A DNA stretch of 64,000 nt, taken from the NCBI RefSeq assembly GCF_003382365.1, contig NZ_QTSU01000001.1:682001-746000 (forward strand), written 5' to 3'. The number at the start of each line of letters is the position of its first letter. Position 1 is the first letter of the stretch. The notes below the pieces were generated by a model that was not told the origin of the DNA, did no database searches, and saw only the letters and a program-made list of their open reading frames with translations. The position numbers and the translations under genes were made by a program. Below are positions 9,148 to 63,223 of this stretch, in pieces. Origin of the DNA: Lysobacter silvisoli. Lineage in GTDB: Bacteria; Pseudomonadota; Gammaproteobacteria; Xanthomonadales; Xanthomonadaceae.

Positions 9148-10857
9148 CTACCGCTCCACCTCGGAAAAATAGGTCCAAGCCCCCGTGCCGCTGCGCGAGT
9201 ACATCTTGCGCAGGCTGCCGCCCAGGGGCGAGCTGGCCGTGCGCACCACGTCGCAGATGCGGTCGCCGTCCATGTCGCGCAGTTCCAGTTGGGCCAGCAT
9301 CTGCGGCTGGGTGTTGAGGTAGCGCCACTGCGGCTGTGCGGTGGAGCGTGCCCACCAGGTGACGCCGGTGGTCATGAACTCGTCCAGCGTGCCGTCGCCG
9401 TCGAAGTCGCAGCGACCCAGCCGGGTGGTGGGGTCGGCGATGCCGTAGCGGTTGTTGGGACGCACCTGGATGGGCCGGGTGATGTCGCCGTCGGTGTCGC
9501 CGTTCTGGGCGATGGCGCTGCCTTGGCTGCCTAGCCGGAAGGCGTTGCCGTCGACCACGGCCTTGTCGGTGGGGTTGCCGCGGATCTTGATCGCGTAGCC
9601 GGCGTCGTAGAGCACGGTGTTGCGCTCGATCAGCATGGTTTCTCCGGCGATGCCGCAGCAATAGTCGCCGCCCAACACGGTGGAGTCCTCGCCGTGCATG
9701 TCGATCTGGTGGGTCTGCCAGCAAATGCTGATGAGGCTGTCGGTGCAATGCCGGCCGCCGCCGGACAGGATCAGGTTGTCGCGCGCGGTGTAGCCGGAGT
9801 AGTCGCCCGCACCGTTGCTGCTGTCGCCCGAGATGGCGTGGCGGTTTTCGTCGAAGGCGTTGCGTTCGATCAGGGCGTAGGCGCCGTAACCCACGTTGAC
9901 GCCGTAGCCGAAGCCGGCTCCGTGGCGGTTGTGGTGGATGTGGTTGTTGCGGATCTGCAGCGTGGTGCGCGCGTTGGTGAGGCGGCCTCGGGTCGTGCCT
10001 GGCGCGGCGGCGTCGCGCACGTCGATGGCGGCGCCGCTCCAGTGGAAGATCTCCATGTTGGAAATCTCGATAGCCTCGATCGGCGGGTGATCGGAAAACG
10101 GCACGATGCGGATGGCCGTTTCCTTGCGGTCGCCGTTGGCCAGGTAATCCGTGGGCCCGCGCAGGCGGAAGCCGGACAGCGCGACGCGGTCGCCGCGCAC
10201 GTCGAATAGGGCCAGATTGCGGCGTTCGTCGGTCACGTAGATCAGCGGGCCGGGGCGGCTCAGGCTGCGTTCGCAGCCGGGCGAGGCGATGATCGAATGC
10301 CCGCTGAGGGTGAGCTGAGAGAGGCCGGTCATGTCGATTTCCACGCCGCAGCGCAGCTCGATCGTGCGCACGCCTTCGGCGGCGACGGCAGCGGCGAGCA
10401 GTTTGGCGGGGGTCGGCGTGTCCGGCGCAATGACGACGCGCTCGGGGTAGGTCACCGCCACCTGCGCCGAGGCGCTGGTCTGCGAGCGCACGCCCAGCCG
10501 CGTTTGGCTGACCACCAGGTGGTACTGGCTGTTCGCGGAGGGTGCGACCTGCCGGCTGCCGTTGCGGCCGACCAGGGCTCCGGCCACGGTGATCGAAACG
10601 CCCGTGCAGTGGCGCGGCACGGTGACTGCCCAGCTGAGCCGGCTGGATTGGCCGTACAGCACGGTGGCCGGGCTGGCGGTCAGGCGCAGCGAGGCCTCGG
10701 TGATGCAGGGCGAGGGTTCCGCGTCGCGATCGGGCCCGCTGCGTTCGCGCGCGCCGACGCTGCCCAGGGCGGCGAGCGAGAGCAACAGGCAGGCGGCCGT
10801 GGTGCCCAGGACCCTATTCGGAAAGCCCGGCATCCTTGCGTGAGGTCCCATCGACAT
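9148..10857 (-). CDS. Secreted right-handed beta-helix protein with C-terminal Asp-rich calcium loops
   Basis: The 569-residue product has a signal peptide (hydrophobic LLLSLAALGSVGA) and an Ig-like N-terminal region (residues of about 50-140). A parallel beta-helix follows (pectate-lyase/NosD style) with repeated IRNNHIHHN, IERNAFDEN and IERNTVLYD turns. The C-terminus has two DFDGDGTLDE and DMDGDRICD loops like FG-GAP or dockerin calcium sites. Such proteins bind or cut polysaccharides outside the cell. The catalytic class cannot be assigned. Confidence 0.85.
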   Translation of the reverse strand: MSMGPHARMPGFPNRVLGTTAACLLLSLAALGSVGARERSGPDRDAEPSPCITEASLRLTASPATVLYGQSSRLSWAVTVPRHCTGVSITVAGALVGRNGSRQVAPSANSQYHLVVSQTRLGVRSQTSASAQVAVTYPERVVIAPDTPTPAKLLAAAVAAEGVRTIELRCGVEIDMTGLSQLTLSGHSIIASPGCERSLSRPGPLIYVTDERRNLALFDVRGDRVALSGFRLRGPTDYLANGDRKETAIRIVPFSDHPPIEAIEISNMEIFHWSGAAIDVRDAAAPGTTRGRLTNARTTLQIRNNHIHHNRHGAGFGYGVNVGYGAYALIERNAFDENRHAISGDSSNGAGDYSGYTARDNLILSGGGRHCTDSLISICWQTHQIDMHGEDSTVLGGDYCCGIAGETMLIERNTVLYDAGYAIKIRGNPTDKAVVDGNAFRLGSQGSAIAQNGDTDGDITRPIQVRPNNRYGIADPTTRLGRCDFDGDGTLDEFMTTGVTWWARSTAQPQWRYLNTQPQMLAQLELRDMDGDRICDVVRTASSPLGGSLRKMYSRSGTGAWTYFSEVER

Positions 10858-11033
10858 GGCCGCGTCCTGGCGTGAAGGTTGTCCTCGGCTAACGCGGCGG
10901 CTCAGCCGTGGCGGCCAAAATGAAAGTTGGGGTAGGCCGGTGCCGGCGCCGTCGCAAGTTTGGTTTGGCGATAGCCAGGTGCCGCACCGCTGGGCAAACT
11001 CCTGGCTGGTTCTTTGGTTTGGAGGCTGGGCCC

Positions 11034-11216
11034 ATGGGCGAATCGTTGTTGGACAAGCACGCTCCCGCTACCGAGCACGACGAGCGCATCGCCGCCATCC
11101 TGGCCGCGGGCGTGGCCGCGTCGCTGAGCCCGGTGGGCACGCAGCCCGAGCTGGCGGCGCGGGCGGTGCGGATTTATCGGGAAGTGTTGGGCAAGTTGCG
11201 CAGCGATTACGCGTAA
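11034..11216 (+). CDS. Small 60-aa hypothetical protein
   Basis: A short acidic-helical protein starts at an ATG just after GGAGGCTGGGCCC, which contains a GGAGG site. The pattern AILAAGVAASLSPVG...LAARAVRIYREVL looks like a folded helical pair. No family is recognised. The gene stands alone between the beta-helix gene and a REP pair. Confidence 0.5.
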   Translation: MGESLLDKHAPATEHDERIAAILAAGVAASLSPVGTQPELAARAVRIYREVLGKLRSDYA

Positions 11217-11245
11217 GCAGGCGTCGTCGTCATCTGTTTATGCGG

Positions 11246-11343
11246 TCTGTGGGAGCGGCGTGAGCCGCGGTTGCGACCTCGCTGGCCGGTGTGGTTTCAG
11301 CTTGGATCGCGACATCCATCGCGGCTCACGCCGCTCCTACAGG
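11246..11343. repeat. Inverted pair of REP palindromes (GGAGCGGCGTGAGCCGC family)
   Basis: Two copies of the REP core lie head to head about 50 bp apart. The left is GGGAGCGGCGTGAGCCGCGG (11251-11270); the right, read on the minus strand, is GTAGGAGCGGCGTGAGCCGC. Each can form a GCGGC/GCCGC hairpin, so the pair is a REPIN. Such elements are spread by RAYT transposases, which are not present in this window. Confidence 0.8.
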
Positions 11344-11349
11344 TAGGCG

Positions 11350-11937
11350 CTAGTCGGCAGCCTTATCGGGCAGGCGGGTGTCGATGGCGATCCAATTGGT
11401 CTCCCAGGTCTTGCCGCCATCGGCGGAGAAGGCCTGCTCGAAGCGCGCCGAGTCGCGGCCGACTTCGGAGATGACGAAGCGCACCAGCACCGCGCGGCCG
11501 TCCAGCTCTTCCAGACTGTAAAACTCGCCGCGGCCGCCCTGGAAGCCACCGAACTGCGGGCGGGTGAGCAGGCCGTTCTTCAGGCTGGCGTAGTTGAGCG
11601 ACCACTGCCGCGTTTGCGGGTTGTACAGGCGCAGGCTGGTGCCGTGGATGCGGCCGGCGGGGCCTTCCACGCGCAGTTCGACCAGGTTGGCGCGCCCGTC
11701 CATGAGCGGGAGCACCACGCTGGTGCCGTCGTATTCGGCCCATTCCTGCTGGCCGGACAGCGGGTTCAGCAAGCGCCGCACCTGGGTGCGCCAGCGGCCG
11801 AATTCCCAATCGAAGTCGTGCTGGCCGTCGTGGCCAGTGGCTTGCTGAGCAGCTTGCGGCGCCTGCGCGGAAGCGCTCACGGCCACCGCCACCAGCAGGC
11901 AACCCAGCATGAACCCGTATCGCAGCGCGTTTTGCAT
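11350..11937 (-). CDS. Exported protein with DUF1579-like beta-barrel
   Basis: The 195-residue product has a Sec signal peptide ending ...VSASAQA and then a beta-rich domain starting HDFDWEFGRWRTQVRRL, the usual opening of DUF1579-like/heme-carrier-like proteins. Function is unknown. A start at 11946 is equally possible (three more residues). It diverges from an HxlR-type regulator across about 50 bp. Confidence 0.78.
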   Translation of the reverse strand: MQNALRYGFMLGCLLVAVAVSASAQAPQAAQQATGHDGQHDFDWEFGRWRTQVRRLLNPLSGQQEWAEYDGTSVVLPLMDGRANLVELRVEGPAGRIHGTSLRLYNPQTRQWSLNYASLKNGLLTRPQFGGFQGGRGEFYSLEELDGRAVLVRFVISEVGRDSARFEQAFSADGGKTWETNWIAIDTRLPDKAAD

Positions 11938-54270: not shown

Positions 54271-54379
54271 CGTCATTCCGGCGTAAGCCGGAACCCATCT
54301 GACGTTCGCTCTGGTTGCAGCGCAGTCCAGGCCGGTACAGCAAGATCAAAATGGGTTCCGGCTTGCGCCGGAATGACGG
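54271..54379. repeat. Inverted REP pair, CATTCCGGCG family
   Basis: CGTCATTCCGGCGTAAGCCG lies at 54271-54290, followed by GAACCCAT. The inverted copy AAAATGGGTTCCGGCTTGCG starts at 54348 and ends in GAATGACG at 54378. The two arms face each other about 45 bp apart, a REPIN. The same family occurs at 57904 and 63106. Confidence 0.8.
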
Positions 54380-57791: not shown

Positions 57792-57903
57792 GGGCTGCGC
57801 TTCGCTACCTGCCGTACCAGTTCCGTCATTCGGTCCGCCGCGGCCCTGCATTTCCGGTCATTGCGGCGCTTTCAGGGCGGCCGCTTGGACGGGCCAAGCG
57901 ACA

Positions 57904-57937
57904 GTCAAAATGGGTTCCGGCTTGCGCCGGAATGACG
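57904..57937. repeat. Single REP, CATTCCGGCG family (inverted orientation)
   Basis: GTCAAAATGGGTTCCGGCTT starts at 57904 and the copy ends in GGAATGACG at 57936. It is a single arm of the REP seen as pairs at 54271 and 63106. Confidence 0.75.
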
Positions 57938-57988
57938 ACGGATTCTCTACGGTTGGTGAGCACGTGACGGTGCGGTTGTCGCCGTACC

Positions 57989-58504
57989 CTACAGCTGTGC
58001 GCCGCTGGGCGCGCCTTCCACTTCCAATGCGGTCAGGTACAGGCGCAGGTCGAACTCCAGCTGGTGGTAGTTCGCTTCCATGTGCGTGCACAGCTGATAG
58101 AAAGCGCGGTTGTGATCGCGTTCCTTCAGGTGCGCCAGTTCGTGCACCACGATCATCTTCAGGAACGGCGCCGGTGCGTCGCGGAACAGGCTGGCGATGC
58201 GGATCTCGCGGTTGGCCTTGAGCTTGGCCCCCTGCACGCGCGAAATCACCGTGTGGGTGCCCAGCGCCTGGCCGATCACCCGCAGCTTGCTGTCGTACAG
58301 CACCTTGTGCAGCGGCTCGGACTTGCGCAGGTAGCGCGCCTTGAGTTCGTTGGCGTAGTCGTACAGCGCGCGGTCGCTGCGGATCTCGTGGTCTTCGCCG
58401 TAGCGTTCGCGCAGACGCGCGCCCAGGCGACCCTGTTCGATCAGCTCGCGCACGCGCGCAAGCACGGGTTCTGGATAACCGCCCAGATAATGGAACCGCT
58501 GCAT
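57989..58504 (-). CDS. YgjP-like/M48-type metallopeptidase
   Basis: The 171-residue product has the zinc motif IVVHELAHLKERDHNRAFYQLC, as in YgjP/SprT-like proteins, plus a helical N-terminus. The second His and following Glu pattern agree with a zinc metalloprotease of the WLM/YgjP group. An in-frame upstream start (58642) is possible but lacks support. Confidence 0.88.
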   Translation of the reverse strand: MQRFHYLGGYPEPVLARVRELIEQGRLGARLRERYGEDHEIRSDRALYDYANELKARYLRKSEPLHKVLYDSKLRVIGQALGTHTVISRVQGAKLKANREIRIASLFRDAPAPFLKMIVVHELAHLKERDHNRAFYQLCTHMEANYHQLEFDLRLYLTALEVEGAPSGAQL

Positions 58505-58761
58505 GCCCACACGATACGGCAAGCGGCGCGCGCAGCGGACATGCGCGCAGTGCGCGCGATCACGCTCTACGCAATACAGATGCATTTCTCGCATCGAGTT
58601 TGCTGCTGTTTTATACGGAAAGAATGCTCCCGATGTTGACAATTTTTAGTTGGTCTTGATTGTCAATTTCGGATTGTGTTTTCCTCGTTCGCAAATGAAG
58701 CCGCCGCGTTCTCCGAATGGGATCGCGTCGGCTCCAGGGATGGCGACGGGGAGACGTGACA
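58505..58761. promoter_or_regulatory. AT-rich divergent region upstream of the Sel1/Gly-tail module
   Basis: The stretch 58600-58700 is the most AT-rich in the window (TATACGGAAAGAATG, GTTGACAATTTTTAG, GATTGTCAATTTCGG). TTGACA at 58636-58641 could be a -35 for the plus strand. Inverted TTGACAAT/ATTGTCAA (58636-58643 and 58658-58665) is a possible operator. A regulator is not known. Confidence 0.4.
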
Positions 58762-59625
58762 GTGGCATCTAGAGACAAGGCAAAAGGCGTCGCGGTCGCG
58801 GCAGCGGTCGCCGCACTGGCGGTGACGGCGTGGTGGTGGTCGGCAGCGAAGCCGGATTCGCAAGCGGGCGGCGTCGCGGGCGCGCCGGCCGTACAGGAGC
58901 ACGGGCCGGCCAGCGACGCCGCCGATGCCGCACGCGACGATGCGAGCCGGTCGCCCGCGGGCAACGCAGCTCGGGCCCGCCCGCCCGCATCGGCCGGCAT
59001 CGAGCGCAGCTACCTTCCGCCGCCCGGCGATGCGGCCGAGGTCTACGCCGCACTGGAAGCGCGCGCACGCGGCGGCGATATCGATGCCGCGCTGAGTCTG
59101 TACGCCAAGGTCAACGACTGCCGCCTGCGCGCGAGCATCGCCATGCGCCGTGCGCCCGATACGGACGTGCAGGCGCTGATTCCGCCGGAGTGCCGCAGTC
59201 TGAGCGCCGAACACTATCGCGAGGCCGGGCGCTGGCTGGAGCGCAGCGCCGACGCCGGCGACGCCTACGCGCAGCTGCTGTACGCCGACAGCGCCGAGAG
59301 CGTGCTGGGCCCGCGCGGCGAATGGCTGCGCGATCCGCAGGCGCTGCAGCGCTATACGCGCAAATCCTTGGACTACCTCAACGCCCAGGCCGCGCGCGGC
59401 GGCATGGAGGCGATGAACCGCCTGGCCTACGTCTACGCCAGCGGCAAGCGCGTGCCGCAGGACCTGGGCAAGGCCTACGCCTACTTCTACGCCCTGCAGT
59501 TGGCGGGCGATCCGAATCTGAGCTTGGGCCACATGCGCCAGGTCGAACAGCGGCTGTCGCCGCAACAACGGTCGTTAGCGACCCAACAGGGGAGAAGGAT
59601 CTATGAACAATGCTGCAAGCGTTAA
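58762..59625 (+). CDS. Sel1-repeat membrane-anchored protein, copy A
   Basis: A GTG start (after a GGGGAGA site) gives 287 residues: a basic head, a membrane helix (residues of about 10-27), a Pro/Ala-rich linker and then Sel1-like repeats (SADAGDAYAQLLYADSAESVLG; NAQAARGGMEAMNRLAYVYASGKRVPQDLGKAYAYFYA), ending EQCCKR. Sel1 domains bind partner proteins. Overlaps the next gene by 23 nt. Its counterpart at 60328 has the same plan. Confidence 0.82.
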   Translation: MASRDKAKGVAVAAAVAALAVTAWWWSAAKPDSQAGGVAGAPAVQEHGPASDAADAARDDASRSPAGNAARARPPASAGIERSYLPPPGDAAEVYAALEARARGGDIDAALSLYAKVNDCRLRASIAMRRAPDTDVQALIPPECRSLSAEHYREAGRWLERSADAGDAYAQLLYADSAESVLGPRGEWLRDPQALQRYTRKSLDYLNAQAARGGMEAMNRLAYVYASGKRVPQDLGKAYAYFYALQLAGDPNLSLGHMRQVEQRLSPQQRSLATQQGRRIYEQCCKR

Positions 59626-60091
59626 ACACACCCGCAAGCGCGGCAAGCGCATCGCGGTAGCCGCGGTGCTGGTGGCCGGCTTGGCCACGGCCTTGTGGCT
59701 GTACGCCGAGGACCGCATGGGCCCGTTCACCTGCAACCACTGCCCGCTGCAGAACCCATTGGTGGATGCCACCACCAAGGCCTTCATCAACGACCTGCGG
59801 CCGATGTGGGGCATGGGCGCGCCTTGGGAAGCCGACGACGTCTACGTGGTCTGCAACACGGCTTACTGCGTGGACTACCGTATCGCTTACCCGGACGAGC
59901 AGAGCTACGAAGGCTTCAACGCCCGCCCGATCCAGGACGGCGGCAGCGGCAGCACGGGTGGCGGCGGCGGTAACGAAACCGGCGGCAGTGGCGGCGGTTA
60001 CAACCCCGGCGCGGGCGGTGGCGGGGGCGGTGGCGGCAGCAGCGGCGGCGGCAGGGTGATCGTCGGCGATCCGGTGGTGGTGGAGAACTGA
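59603..60091 (+). CDS. Anchored Cys-paired protein with Gly-rich tail, copy A
   Basis: The 162-residue product has a membrane helix (residues 17-34), an extracytoplasmic part with four Cys (FTCNHCPL and VVCNTAYCVDY) and a Gly-rich tail (GGGYNPGAGGGGGGGG) that ends VGDPVVVEN. It overlaps the Sel1 gene, so the pair is coupled. No family is recognised. Confidence 0.8.
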   Translation: MNNAASVKHTRKRGKRIAVAAVLVAGLATALWLYAEDRMGPFTCNHCPLQNPLVDATTKAFINDLRPMWGMGAPWEADDVYVVCNTAYCVDYRIAYPDEQSYEGFNARPIQDGGSGSTGGGGGNETGGSGGGYNPGAGGGGGGGGSSGGGRVIVGDPVVVEN

Positions 60092-60101
60092 GCACAGACG
60101 G

Positions 60102-60126
60102 AGCCCGCTTCGGCGGGCTTCGTTGC
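60102..60126 (+). terminator. Terminator after copy A
   Basis: AGCCCGC-TTCG-GCGGGCT forms a 7-bp stem with a UUCG tetraloop, followed by TCGTTGCGT. The same hairpin in changed form follows copy B. Confidence 0.75.
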
Positions 60127-60127
60127 G

Positions 60128-60327
60128 TACGCTGCCAGGAAACTGGGCGGTAGTAGTGAGCACAACGCGCGTTTGCGAATGATTAAATGTGGAAATGAGG
60201 TGCTAATACAGTGAGTTCTTGCGCTCTTACTTTCGCGGGAGTTGTTCAGCACTTTTCTATATATGGGTTGCTTTCGCCTCTACAGCGCTGTGCTTGCTTG
60301 TGCTTGTAACGGAGTTCTAGGACGGTT
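60128..60327. other. AT-rich gap between copies A and B
   Basis: About 200 bp of low-GC DNA; may contain a promoter for copy B (TTCTATATATGG near 60255). No gene is supported. Confidence 0.45.
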
Positions 60328-61221
60328 ATGGAGTTGGCCAACAAGCGAATGTGCTGGGCTCCAATCGCGGCGGTGGCCGCCATTTGTTTGGTAATCGCGT
60401 GCCTGACTTGGTCAAGACGTTCGACTGGACTCCAAGAGACGGAACTATCAACGCACGTCAACTTAGACCGCAAGGGCCAACCTGCCAATTCCAATTCAAG
60501 GCTGGGTGAGGGGCAGGGGGGGAGCGTCGTTGCTGTCGAGTCGCGTAAAGGGCGAGCCTACTTCAACCAACGCAGCTACTTCGCACCCGCAGGCGATGTC
60601 GAGGATGTCGCGCGACGCCTGACGCTCTTGGCTGAGGCCGGGGATGCGGAGGCGGCCTTTCTGCTCTATTTGAAGTTCGAGGAGTGCAGGCGAGCGCTGG
60701 AGGATGGCGTCAGCCAAGCAGAGCTGCGTCTCTATTCCGATGCAAAAGCAGTGCAGAATCGACTGAACGCAGAGGCACGGACACTAGATGGCTGTGCGAA
60801 CTACTCAAAGATCAAGGAGCCACGGGCGGGATATTGGTTGGAGCAATCCGCTGACGCCGGCTATCTAATCGCTCAGTTGATGTACGCCTCCGACTCTCGT
60901 GCTGTGCTCGGCTCGAGAGCGGATATGTTGCGCTCGCCTGAGGACACGATCCGCTACCGACGCAAGGCGATCGCGTACTTGGAACGCGCGGCCAACACCG
61001 GGAACGTGGACGCATTGATCTCGCTGGGGAAATCGTACCAGAGCGGGATTATTGCCAAGGAAGATTTGGTCAAAGCGTATTCGTACTTCTACGCAGCGGG
61101 CATGGTGAATCCAAACTTTACCCGGAATTACATCGGGAGGCTCGAGCGCAAATTGACCCGTGAACAAATGGAGCAAGCCAAGCAGCGCGGCGTCCAGATT
61201 TTCAATGGCTGCTGCAAATAA
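60328..61221 (+). CDS. Sel1-repeat membrane-anchored protein, copy B
   Basis: The 297-residue product repeats the plan of copy A: membrane helix (APIAAVAAICLVIACLTW), linker, SADAGYLIAQLMYASDSRAVLG, AANTGNVDALISLGKSYQSG, DLVKAYSYFYAAG, and a CCK end. GC is clearly lower than in copy A, although the protein pattern is kept. Confidence 0.8.
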   Translation: MELANKRMCWAPIAAVAAICLVIACLTWSRRSTGLQETELSTHVNLDRKGQPANSNSRLGEGQGGSVVAVESRKGRAYFNQRSYFAPAGDVEDVARRLTLLAEAGDAEAAFLLYLKFEECRRALEDGVSQAELRLYSDAKAVQNRLNAEARTLDGCANYSKIKEPRAGYWLEQSADAGYLIAQLMYASDSRAVLGSRADMLRSPEDTIRYRRKAIAYLERAANTGNVDALISLGKSYQSGIIAKEDLVKAYSYFYAAGMVNPNFTRNYIGRLERKLTREQMEQAKQRGVQIFNGCCK

Positions 61222-61239
61222 AGGGTGGAATGGAGTGCT

Positions 61240-61716
61240 ATGAATAGGATGTTTTTTGGATGGGCGGCGCTGTGCTTGGGCCTATCCGTTCTGATCGTAG
61301 TTGCGGCCGATCCTGGGAGCAGATCGTTTGGTCCGTATTTGTGTTCTGGCGGTTGTGCTTTAGGTATGCCCATGCCGGATTCTGCCACCGACGCGTTTAT
61401 TGACGCTTTGGATCACGGCCCCGCTTTTCCGGCCAGCATAATAAACCCAGGGCTGAACATGGTGGCCGGGGATTCGATCATGGTCTGCGACAGCACGCAC
61501 TGTGCGACCTATGTTCTCTCGGATGATGACCTCTACCAAGGGATAAAAATCGAGGAGCGTACGAACGGCAGCGGCAGCGCGGACGGTGGCGGTGGTGCCG
61601 AAACTGGCGAAAACGGCGGCGGCTACAACCCGGGCGCGGGTGGCGGCGGCGGTGGTGGCGGTAGCAGCGGCGGCGGCAAGGTGACCATTGGCGATCCGGT
61701 GGTGGTGGAGAACTGA
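61240..61716 (+). CDS. Anchored Cys-paired protein with Gly-rich tail, copy B
   Basis: The 158-residue product has an N-terminal membrane helix, YLCSGGCALGMP and MVCDSTHCATYV Cys pairs and a Gly tail (GGYNPGAGGGGGGGG) that ends IGDPVVVEN. The first two-thirds is of low GC and diverged; the tail is nearly that of copy A at the DNA level. ATG at 61240 has GGAG before it; a GTG at 61225 is possible. Confidence 0.8.
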   Translation: MNRMFFGWAALCLGLSVLIVVAADPGSRSFGPYLCSGGCALGMPMPDSATDAFIDALDHGPAFPASIINPGLNMVAGDSIMVCDSTHCATYVLSDDDLYQGIKIEERTNGSGSADGGGGAETGENGGGYNPGAGGGGGGGGSSGGGKVTIGDPVVVEN

Positions 61717-61726
61717 GCGCGAACGG

Positions 61727-61750
61727 AGCCCGCCCAGGCGGGCTTCGTTG
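61727..61750 (+). terminator. Terminator after copy B
   Basis: AGCCCGC-CCAG-GCGGGCT stem, then TCGTTGCGT; same stem as after copy A with a different loop. Confidence 0.75.
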
Positions 61751-61835
61751 CGTTTGCCGGTCGCGCCCCAGGCGCTTTGCGGGTCCAGGCCCTATCGCAA
61801 CAAATCCGTCATCGTCCGGCCATAGTCTGCGCGGC

Positions 61836-63044
61836 ATGGACATCCTGATGCTGTCGGACGTGTACTTCCCTCGGGTCAACGGCGTGTCGACCTCGATCCG
61901 CACCTTCGCCCAGGTGCTGGCGCGCATGGGCCACCGGGTGACCCTGGTGGCGCCGGACTACGGGCCGGACAGCGGCCAGGAGCAGCACGACGGCCACGGC
62001 GAGTTCGAGGTGATCCGCCTGCCGGCGCGGGTGATCTTCTTCGACCCCGAGGACCGGCTGATCCGCGCCAGCGCCTTGCGCCGTGCGCAGGAGGAACTGG
62101 CCCAGCGGCGCTGGGACGTGATCCACATCCACACGCCGTTCCGCGCCCACAGCCTGGGCGTACGTCTGGCGCGGCGCGGCGGCTGGCCGACGGTGGAGAC
62201 CTACCACACCTATTTCGAGGAATACGTGGGCCACTACCTGCCGTGGGCGCCGGCGCCGCTGCTGCGTGCGTTCGCGCGTCGCGCCTCGCGCTCGCTGTGT
62301 CACGGCGTGGATCACCTGATCGTGCCCACGGCGCAGATGGTGCAGGTGCTGGACGGCTACGGCATCACCACGCCGTCGACGGTGCTGCCCACCGGCATCG
62401 AGCTCAGCGAGTTCGCGCGTGGCGACGGCGCGCGCTTCCGCGCCGAGCATGGCATCGCGCCGGAGCGGCCGACGCTGGTCACGGTGAGCCGGTTGGCGGT
62501 GGAGAAGAACATCGCCTTCCTGCTGCGCGTGGCGCAGCGTCTGGTCGGCGAATTTCCGGATCTGCTGTTCCTGATCGCCGGCGAAGGTCCGGACGCGACG
62601 CGGCTGAAGCGGCTCAGCGCCGAGTTGGGGTTGCAGGAACATGTGCGCTTCTTCGGCAACCTGGACCGGCGCACCACGCTGCTGGATGCCTACCGCGCGG
62701 GCGATGTGTTCGTGTTCGCATCGCCCACCGAAACCCAAGGCTTGGTGCTGATCGAGGCCATGGCGCTGGGCGTGCCCATCGTTTCCACTGCGGTCATGGG
62801 CACGGCCACGGTGCTGCGCGATGCGCGCAGCGCGGTGATCAGCGAGGAGGACGAGGCCGCGTTCGCCGGGCATGTGGCGCGGGTGCTGCGCTCGCCGGAG
62901 ACGCGAGCCGCGTTGTCGGCGGCGGGGCCGTCGGATGCGCGCGTGTGGAGCGCGGACGGTTTGATGGAGCAGGTGGTTGCGCTGTATCAGCGCTTGGCGC
63001 ATGCGCGGCAGCGGACGGCGGCAGAGCCGGTGCAGGCGGCCTAG
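61836..63044 (+). CDS. GT4-family glycosyltransferase
   Basis: The 402-residue product has the GT4 pattern: MLSDVYFPRVNGVSTSIRTF (donor-side loop), VIHIHTPFRAHSLG, TYHTYFEEYVGHYLP, LPTGIELSEFARG, and ASPTETQGLVLIEAMALGVPIV (E-x7-E). Close in style to alpha-mannosyltransferases acting on lipid or diacylglycerol acceptors in the membrane. Soluble with membrane association. Confidence 0.92.
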   Translation: MDILMLSDVYFPRVNGVSTSIRTFAQVLARMGHRVTLVAPDYGPDSGQEQHDGHGEFEVIRLPARVIFFDPEDRLIRASALRRAQEELAQRRWDVIHIHTPFRAHSLGVRLARRGGWPTVETYHTYFEEYVGHYLPWAPAPLLRAFARRASRSLCHGVDHLIVPTAQMVQVLDGYGITTPSTVLPTGIELSEFARGDGARFRAEHGIAPERPTLVTVSRLAVEKNIAFLLRVAQRLVGEFPDLLFLIAGEGPDATRLKRLSAELGLQEHVRFFGNLDRRTTLLDAYRAGDVFVFASPTETQGLVLIEAMALGVPIVSTAVMGTATVLRDARSAVISEEDEAAFAGHVARVLRSPETRAALSAAGPSDARVWSADGLMEQVVALYQRLAHARQRTAAEPVQAA

Positions 63045-63105: not shown

Positions 63106-63223
63106 CGTCATTCCGGCGAAAGCCGGAACCCATTTTGATCTTGCTGCCGCAGCTCAGCCTTTTTCGCAGCCGGCGACTTATCGAGCAACGGCACAATGGG
63201 TTCCGGCTTTCGCCGGAATGACG
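63106..63223. repeat. Inverted REP pair, CATTCCGGCG family
   Basis: The left arm begins CGTCATTCCGGCGAAAGCCG at 63106 and runs through GAACCCATTTTG. The right arm runs from CAATGGGTTCCGGCTTTCGC (63194) to GGAATGACG. Together with those at 54271 and 57904, these show a dispersed family. Confidence 0.8.

Follow-up and report, generated by a model that had tools for sequence, protein, structure and literature searches.

A two-gene module of Lysobacter pairs a Sel1-like protein with a small Cys/Gly protein whose C-terminal tail evolves separately

We analyzed a 64,000-nucleotide stretch of the Lysobacter silvisoli genome (the window; RefSeq assembly GCF_003382365.1, contig NZ_QTSU01000001.1, positions 682,001 to 746,000) that contains two consecutive copies of a two-gene module. 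In each copy, the gene for a Sel1-like repeat protein (Sel1) is followed by the gene for a small protein (the Cys/Gly protein) that starts with a hydrophobic segment, continues with a body in which four cysteines are conserved, and ends in a Gly-rich tail. The small protein matches none of the curated families searched, and wherever it was found across one bacterial order it had a Sel1 partner. Sel1 and the body have matched evolutionary distances, and the evolution of the tail is separate from theirs, an aspect that was absent from the earlier account of this DNA.

Sequence profiles were used to survey the occurrence of the two genes. Profile A1 was built from 18 Sel1 proteins and profile A2 from 20 small proteins, and the A2 members were gathered by similarity to the window's own protein regardless of their neighbors. 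The family survey of 247 genomes gave A1 matches at 1e-10 in 44 genomes and A2 matches at 1e-3 in 22. A2 was found in 11 of 250 genomes of an order sample (3 outside the family), in 2 of 369 genomes of a class sample (both within the family), and in 11 of the 20 Lysobacter genomes of the genus survey. The genus survey scored all candidates, and the other surveys scored the best 9–15 per genome, which makes their counts lower bounds. Forty-six stretches were read: every A2 match of the family, order, and genus surveys, the 37 strongest family A1 matches, and the window. Left out were 24 of the 62 Sel1 rows of the family survey, all weaker than 1e-21. The 45 A2 frames reduce to 42 genes: splitting makes two of the genes count double, and a further frame is a match to the low-complexity tail only. 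L018 in genome G176 (E 5e-4, with an internal stop) and the tail-only L118 in G091 were dropped as low-complexity matches.

A Sel1 gene adjoins all 42 small-protein genes on the same strand within 1.5 kb, upstream in 41 cases and downstream in 1, and the paired modules are present in three families of one order. The strict pairing proposed in the first-pass annotation therefore holds for the small gene across the Lysobacter, family, and order surveys, and the pattern named beforehand as its refutation, the two genes lying mostly apart across genomes, was not found. The reverse relationship is looser. A partner is present beside 29 of the 37 strongest family A1 matches and there is no intact partner at the other 8, one of which (L111) has what appears by eye to be the start of a broken partner. 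These counts indicate that the small gene depends on Sel1, and less so conversely. The start of the small gene lies between −20 and +22 nt from the Sel1 stop in 15 modules with hand-chosen starts; the corresponding values in the window are −23 (a 23-nt overlap in copy 1) and +18 (an 18-nt gap in copy 2).

Several loci have unusual arrangements. The sole reversed order among the 42, with the small gene before Sel1, is at L113 (G100, 9479-10921). One Sel1 gene is followed by two small-protein genes at L092 (G077, 10390-11439), the second diverged and without the Gly tail. L088 (G173, 9749-10609) is a decayed second module that consists of a Sel1 fragment and then a small-gene fragment; G173 also has one intact module. 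A lone family Sel1 gene at L110 (G145, 9881-11148) stands beside a gene with an RHS-core-like stretch recognized by eye. To find recurring neighbors, genes were called crudely in 34 regions and compared all against all, and among the 25 largest clusters only Sel1 is widespread (30 regions). The next-widest clusters are a PAS-type gene (6 regions) and another gene (5 regions), and most others reflect the synteny of four Lysobacter regions. PAS-type genes, response-regulator genes, and the RHS-core fragment beside L110 were considered and dropped.

The statistics cover the 34 complete modules and exclude 8 of the 42 small-protein genes, which are broken, truncated, or extra copies. Pairwise distances in Sel1 and in the body are correlated (r = 0.87). 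Swapping partners within the seven multi-copy genomes lowers the mean r to 0.59, and 1 of 2000 swaps reaches the observed value. The partners are inherited jointly, with no exchange between sister modules, which fits cognate binding and also simple linkage. The tail is less tightly coupled to either of them (Sel1-tail r = 0.42; body-tail r = 0.34).

The two window copies were compared part by part. The two cassettes in a row, the C-terminal ends (CCK; V/IGDPVVVEN), and the hairpins described in the first-pass annotation were all found at 58762-61753, and the features are as follows (hairpin z values are for folding against dinucleotide shuffles).

58562..58761, plus strand: AT-richer leader of cassette 1 (GC 0.49 versus 0.688 for the window), a putative promoter region
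58762..59625, plus strand: Sel1-1, with an N-terminal hydrophobic segment, a low-complexity spacer, a Sel1-like alpha-solenoid, and C-terminal CCKR; the start codon is GTG
59603..60091, plus strand: Cys/Gly-1, with an N-terminal hydrophobic segment, a four-cysteine body, and a Gly-rich tail with the C-terminal sequence VGDPVVVEN; the gene overlaps the end of Sel1-1
59939..60091, plus strand: Gly-rich tail 1 and stop codon
59941..60128, plus strand: shared tract copy 1 (tail, stop, hairpin), 188 nt, 85% identical to 61566-61753, with sharp edges
60092..60327, plus strand: intergenic stretch (GC 0.52) that includes hairpin 1 and, probably, the cassette 2 leader
60100..60127, plus strand: hairpin 1, terminator-like (z = −4.49)
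60328..61221, plus strand: Sel1-2, a second Sel1-like protein with C-terminal CCK
61240..61716, plus strand: Cys/Gly-2, a second small, presumably exported protein ending IGDPVVVEN (E 1.5e-44 with profile A2, which includes it)
61566..61753, plus strand: shared tract copy 2 (tail, stop, hairpin)
61725..61752, plus strand: hairpin 2, with the same stem as hairpin 1 (z = −4.82)

Sel1-1 and Sel1-2 share 31% protein identity, and Cys/Gly-1 and Cys/Gly-2 are 46% identical over their full length and about 22% identical in the body only (distance 0.78). The DNA identity between the cassettes is 49% in Sel1, 45% in the body, 84% in the tail, and 68% in the next 60 nt. The edges of the shared tract are abrupt in 30-nt windows: identity is 17–33% before the tract, 73–93% through the tail and stop, 80% and then 60% over the hairpin and the end, and 17–30% beyond. 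The term tandem duplicate thus suits the tail, stop, and hairpin tract, and the remainder has strongly diverged. The duplication is not recent, and the cassettes are old and divergent outside this tract. Gene conversion most likely spread the tract common to the two copies, and the tail dS (synonymous divergence) of the window pair is 0.45 versus about 2. The GC content of Sel1 is 0.57 in cassette 2, 0.56 in a third module elsewhere in the genome, and 0.71 in cassette 1. Tail 2 has a GC content at third codon positions of 0.76, higher than the 0.61 in its own body, a pattern that fits donation of the tail by cassette 1.

The hairpin pattern occurs twice in the window compared to 0.00 expected, and its 15-mer GCGGGCTTCGTTGCG has exactly two occurrences in the 4.54-Mb genome, both in the two cassettes. 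The hairpins are not among the output of a terminator scan, which gave 4 sites versus 3.4 expected. Each cassette does have a hairpin with the same stem, as had been claimed when these were called the cassettes' own terminators; we infer termination there with caution, since the T runs are weak and the scan does not list the sites. A sigma-70 consensus scan of 57800-61900 gave no promoter-like sites.

The separate history of the tail is clearest in Lysobacter cf310 and Root916, which have two modules each at the same locus. Between the two genomes, the orthologs are 94% identical for Sel1 copy 1, 91% for body copy 1, and 86% for Sel1 and body of copy 2, and only 69–71% for the tails. Between the two modules within cf310 or Root916, Sel1 is 70% identical, the body 76–77%, and the tail 96%. 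Topology tests with seven modules favor the ortholog tree for Sel1 (by 300 log units) and the body (by 109), and the tail favors the same-genome tree by 80 log units (approximately unbiased test, p 5.6e-6). In these two genomes, bodies follow orthology and tails follow the genome, and the alternative is rejected both ways. The tail dS within cf310 or Root916 is 0.11 versus 0.60–0.92 elsewhere. The low dS and the tail tree together indicate gene conversion, after which the tails change in step. The ratio of nonsynonymous to synonymous divergence (dN/dS) between cf310 and Root916 is 0.7–0.9 in the tail versus 0.2–0.5 in Sel1 and the body.

Tails also resemble each other between some distant copies. 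The third module of the window's genome (G000:C1:1556048-1557450, minus strand) lies 0.8 Mb from the window. Its tail (W_3) and that of the first window copy (W_1) have a proportion of nonsynonymous differences (pN) of 0.10 and a saturated proportion of synonymous differences (pS) of 0.77, and the pN is 0.50 for Sel1 and 0.52 for the body. The tails of W_2 and W_3 have a pS of 0.54 and a pN of 0.15. For the unlinked copies a and b of G414, the tail dS is 1.10 and the dN 0.11. Conversion is thus not the whole story, because amino acids are kept where synonymous sites are saturated, and the tail protein is conserved. Over 13 pairs, same-genome tails lie nearer to each other than expected from the distances of their bodies (mean residual −0.168; none of 5000 label shuffles gave so low a value). 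The tail thus offers a clean example from nature of a protein whose parts have different histories, one tied to the genome and the other to the gene. With it, one can ask if concerted evolution in bacterial proteins is driven by recombination alone or by selection for matching.

The body of the small protein has a cysteine pattern of roughly C..C...PD..T...GD...CN...C..Y, and the tail closes with roughly V-x-V-G-x-P, followed by a few variable residues. Searches of Pfam and NCBIfam at E up to 1 gave no match for the window's small proteins. Twenty relatives compared with Pfam gave a single weak FeoA match and a single weak SH3_2 match, which hint at a small beta fold, and no match to a toxin domain or a PE domain. 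A sequence search of the PDB with the small protein gave weak matches only (a receptor entry, connexins, and antibody chains among those listed; best E 0.02). A low-confidence predicted model places a helix at 8-37 and strands between 80 and 109, and the predicted local distance difference test score (pLDDT) of the tail is below 50.

The Sel1 proteins are recognizable by their predicted fold. Sel1-1 scores 26.9 bits and Sel1-2 18.1 bits (E 0.0041) against Pfam Sel1 (PF08238), below the gathering score of 30.7, and Sel1-2 matches profile A1, which includes it, with E 1.7e-96. The predicted structure of Sel1-1 is a well-modeled Sel1-like solenoid over residues 91-287, and the Sel1 proteins have profile matches to solved Sel1 chains. 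They fall far below the NCBIfam equivalog cut-offs for AlgK (24 and 20.7 bits versus 700) and MotX (11.3 and 19 bits versus 330). The PADLOC anti-phage defense profiles gave a single weak match, Sel1-2 to PtuA (E 0.029), which does not amount to membership. The conserved cysteines of Sel1-1 are at positions 120, 144, 284, and 285, a spacing that differs from the Hcp type. Searches of plasmids, phages, and viral contigs (query P0003 or alignment A3) found no Sel1 relative. A scan of named genomes gave 9 loci: the module is present at 3 (Lysobacter sp. Root916, cf310, and Root76), and the other 6 have 30–35% identity to parts of Sel1.

Of the 49 Sel1 frames scanned, 45 have a strongly hydrophobic N-terminal 16-mer, as do 37 of the 44 frames of the small protein. 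A lipobox pattern occurs in 12 Sel1 frames, seven of them judged typical lipoprotein signals, and several small proteins have, as judged by eye, an AxA-like cleavage site. The proteins had been described as anchored. The N-terminal hydrophobic segment is certain, and several relatives look by eye like cleaved signal-peptide proteins (small protein) or lipoproteins (Sel1); the anchor type varies, and the location seems to be retained. Sel1 has 4 or 2 cysteines in 33 of 34 modules (the exception, L099, is a run-on frame), and the tail has 0, 2, or 4 in 34 of 34. The hydrophobic N termini and the even cysteine numbers suggest that both proteins are periplasmic and oxidized. Tail cysteines occur in 6 of 6 modules whose Sel1 has no terminal cysteines compared to 13 of the 28 others, where the Sel1 terminus is CC except for two modules with a single C. 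This is a hint, drawn from related sequences only, that loss of the Sel1 terminal cysteines is linked to tail cysteines.

The reading that we favor, tentatively and at somewhat below an even chance, is a cognate periplasmic complex in which Sel1 binds the cysteine domain and the flexible tail serves a partner common to the copies in the cell. Each cassette would give rise to a cognate pair of envelope proteins. The N-terminal hydrophobic segments would drive the export of both proteins, which would face the periplasm and may form disulfides there through their cysteines. The Sel1 solenoid would specifically hold the four-cysteine body of its own partner, since the pairs are not shuffled. The Gly-rich arm, probably unfolded, would carry the short conserved end (roughly V-x-V-G-x-P), which would dock on something common to related copies, be it a third protein or sister-copy tails. 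The periplasmic interaction of the two products put forward in the first-pass annotation is consistent with the coupled genes, the export signals, the even cysteine counts, and the matched distances; location, disulfides, direct binding, and the common tail partner are what we infer. A bolder reading, which we regard as improbable, is a constant-tail, variable-body envelope system. Sister modules would diverge in their cognate Sel1 and body and would have to keep the same C-terminal arm, altered in step in close copies whenever the lineage alters it. In the periplasm or at the surface, the tail would work as an address specific to the strain or as a means of self-matching. The small protein is a family to name; its predicted binding is clear-cut, and its cognate and non-cognate pairs make a simple set for testing.

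A number of results weigh against a cognate complex with a shared tail partner. Genes that travel jointly also yield matched trees; only the within-genome swap test bears on specificity, and its basis is seven genomes. Sel1 can persist alone, as at the 8 loci with no intact partner. The predicted model of the small protein (7 sequences, mean pLDDT 47.5) is too poor for use. The near-identical stretch in cf310 and Root916 may begin inside the body. Clear genome-specific stepwise tail change is confined to these two genomes, and in the others the tail is just better conserved than the body. Unlike tails occur within G077, G104, and G814 and in the third copies of G015 and G414. The W_1 tail is nearly as near to Root76 (dN 0.13) as to W_3 (0.10), and the G414 copy b tail has a dN of 0.11 to both G195 and G414 copy a; in W_1/Root76 and G414/G195 the tail is simply conserved and not genome-specific. 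A W_1 tail search of the window's genome found the three module genes and no other protein with the tail, which makes a general sorting-signal role unlikely. This search is not very sensitive, as it missed G217's own module and gave only two weak rows in G414, both away from the module places.

Matching of the tails may also be a passive by-product: GC-rich DNA of Gly codons would recombine easily, conversion would homogenize it, and the tail would have no specific function. This account concerns the tail only and is compatible with the other readings, and we hold it to be a substantial possibility that falls short of likely. The tail dS of 0.11 within cf310 and Root916 and the non-coding hairpin common to the window copies argue for homogenization at the DNA level, the tail dN/dS of 0.7–0.9 is as under weak constraint, and gene conversion is described for the neighboring Gly-rich genes PE_PGRS17 and 18 in the part of that report available (PMC1762029). 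The W_1/W_3 and G414 a/b comparisons count against it by suggesting selection on the tail protein; low complexity could lower pN, hence they are not decisive. That unrelated Sel1 and Gly-rich open frames are adjacent by accident we consider virtually impossible. Spurious frames are common in GC-rich DNA, but these are conserved protein families in near-constant order across three bacterial families, and the pairing at 42 of 42 genes refutes such an artefact.

Two other functions were considered for the pair as a whole. An antagonism pair, made of an exported antibacterial Cys/Gly factor and a periplasmic Sel1 immunity protein, would make the tandem copies a diversified array and the lone Sel1 genes orphan immunity. 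The asymmetry of pairing (small gene alone at 0 of 42, Sel1 without a partner at 8 of 37), the patchy presence in 11 of 20 Lysobacter genomes, and the lack of exchange of cognate partners within genomes fit this explanation, as does the precedent of the three Sel1-repeat immunity proteins Tli5b of PldB, a type VI secretion system (T6SS) effector, in the portion of the source at hand (PMC13133936). We nonetheless judge it unlikely. The window proteins and the 20 relatives have no toxin-domain match in Pfam, only Sel1 recurs widely among the 25 largest neighbor clusters, and Sel1 precedes the small gene in 41 of 42 cases. The T6SS sheath gene VipB (PF05943) was not found in the window's genome, G000, where other secretion systems were not searched. 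VipB is present in 12 of the 20 genus genomes, 5 of the 11 with the module and 7 of the 9 without it; it is not associated with the module in the genus, and a T6SS link is unsupported. A client with a dedicated chaperone is less probable still. Here Sel1 would keep the small protein soluble or guide it to the outer membrane or surface, and the tail would build a surface or matrix structure. Sel1 stands beside every small-protein gene found, the solved Sel1-like matches include AlgK, named in the alginate modification and secretion complex, and the tail has low predicted order. Against a chaperone, no export or surface-polymer family recurs beside the module in the listed neighbor clusters, and the AlgK profile score of 24 bits against a 700-bit cut-off reflects the common repeat only.

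The two cassettes are flanked on one side by what we take, from sequence features, to be a YgjP-like hydrolase gene (minus strand) and on the other by a presumed glycosyltransferase gene. All 20 genus genomes have the latter gene, and in 15 of them the 1.5 kb before it contain no match to the window's module. As far as seen, 5 of the 20 have a module at the window locus, in 3 of the 5 beyond the 1.5-kb upstream stretch, and other genomes have modules at other loci. Elsewhere in the window, a short palindromic repeat, GGTTCCGGC-loop-GCCGGAATGAC, has five copies (54272-54295, 54354-54377, 57913-57936, 63107-63130, and 63199-63222). Four of the five form two facing pairs, with 0.00 expected by chance, and the repeat looks like a repetitive extragenic palindromic (REP)-type element.

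The first-pass annotation knew of no described system of this type, and we likewise found no account of such a pair in the open-licence literature, with most subscription journals outside coverage. Sel1-like repeat proteins (PF08238; AlgK, MotX, LpnE, LceB, and HcpC are among the structure and sequence matches) share the predicted alpha-solenoid fold. The module differs from them by a Sel1 sequence below the Pfam cut-off, the small partner gene that follows, and vicinal C-terminal cysteines in most members. The Helicobacter Hcp proteins have a cysteine pair seven residues apart in each repeat according to the available part of their description (PMC4792463), unlike the cysteine positions of Sel1-1. 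In the accessible text on Haemophilus SlrV, the cysteines are called equidistant, whereas those of the module are vicinal, and a paired Cys/Gly gene is not mentioned there. The Tli5b proteins, three for the one T6SS phospholipase toxin PldB in the excerpt available, resemble the module in their Sel1-like repeats. The partner in the module is a small Cys/Gly protein with no match to a toxin domain or a phospholipase-type effector, and the window's genome gave no PF05943 match. The mycobacterial PE_PGRS17/18 genes, as far as the available text describes them, are neighboring Gly-rich paralogs that exchange sequence by gene conversion, and the window copies, with their probable conversion, resemble them. 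The module has no match to that family or to a PE domain, and its exchange involves two genes' worth of cassette only at the C-terminal tail and the hairpin.

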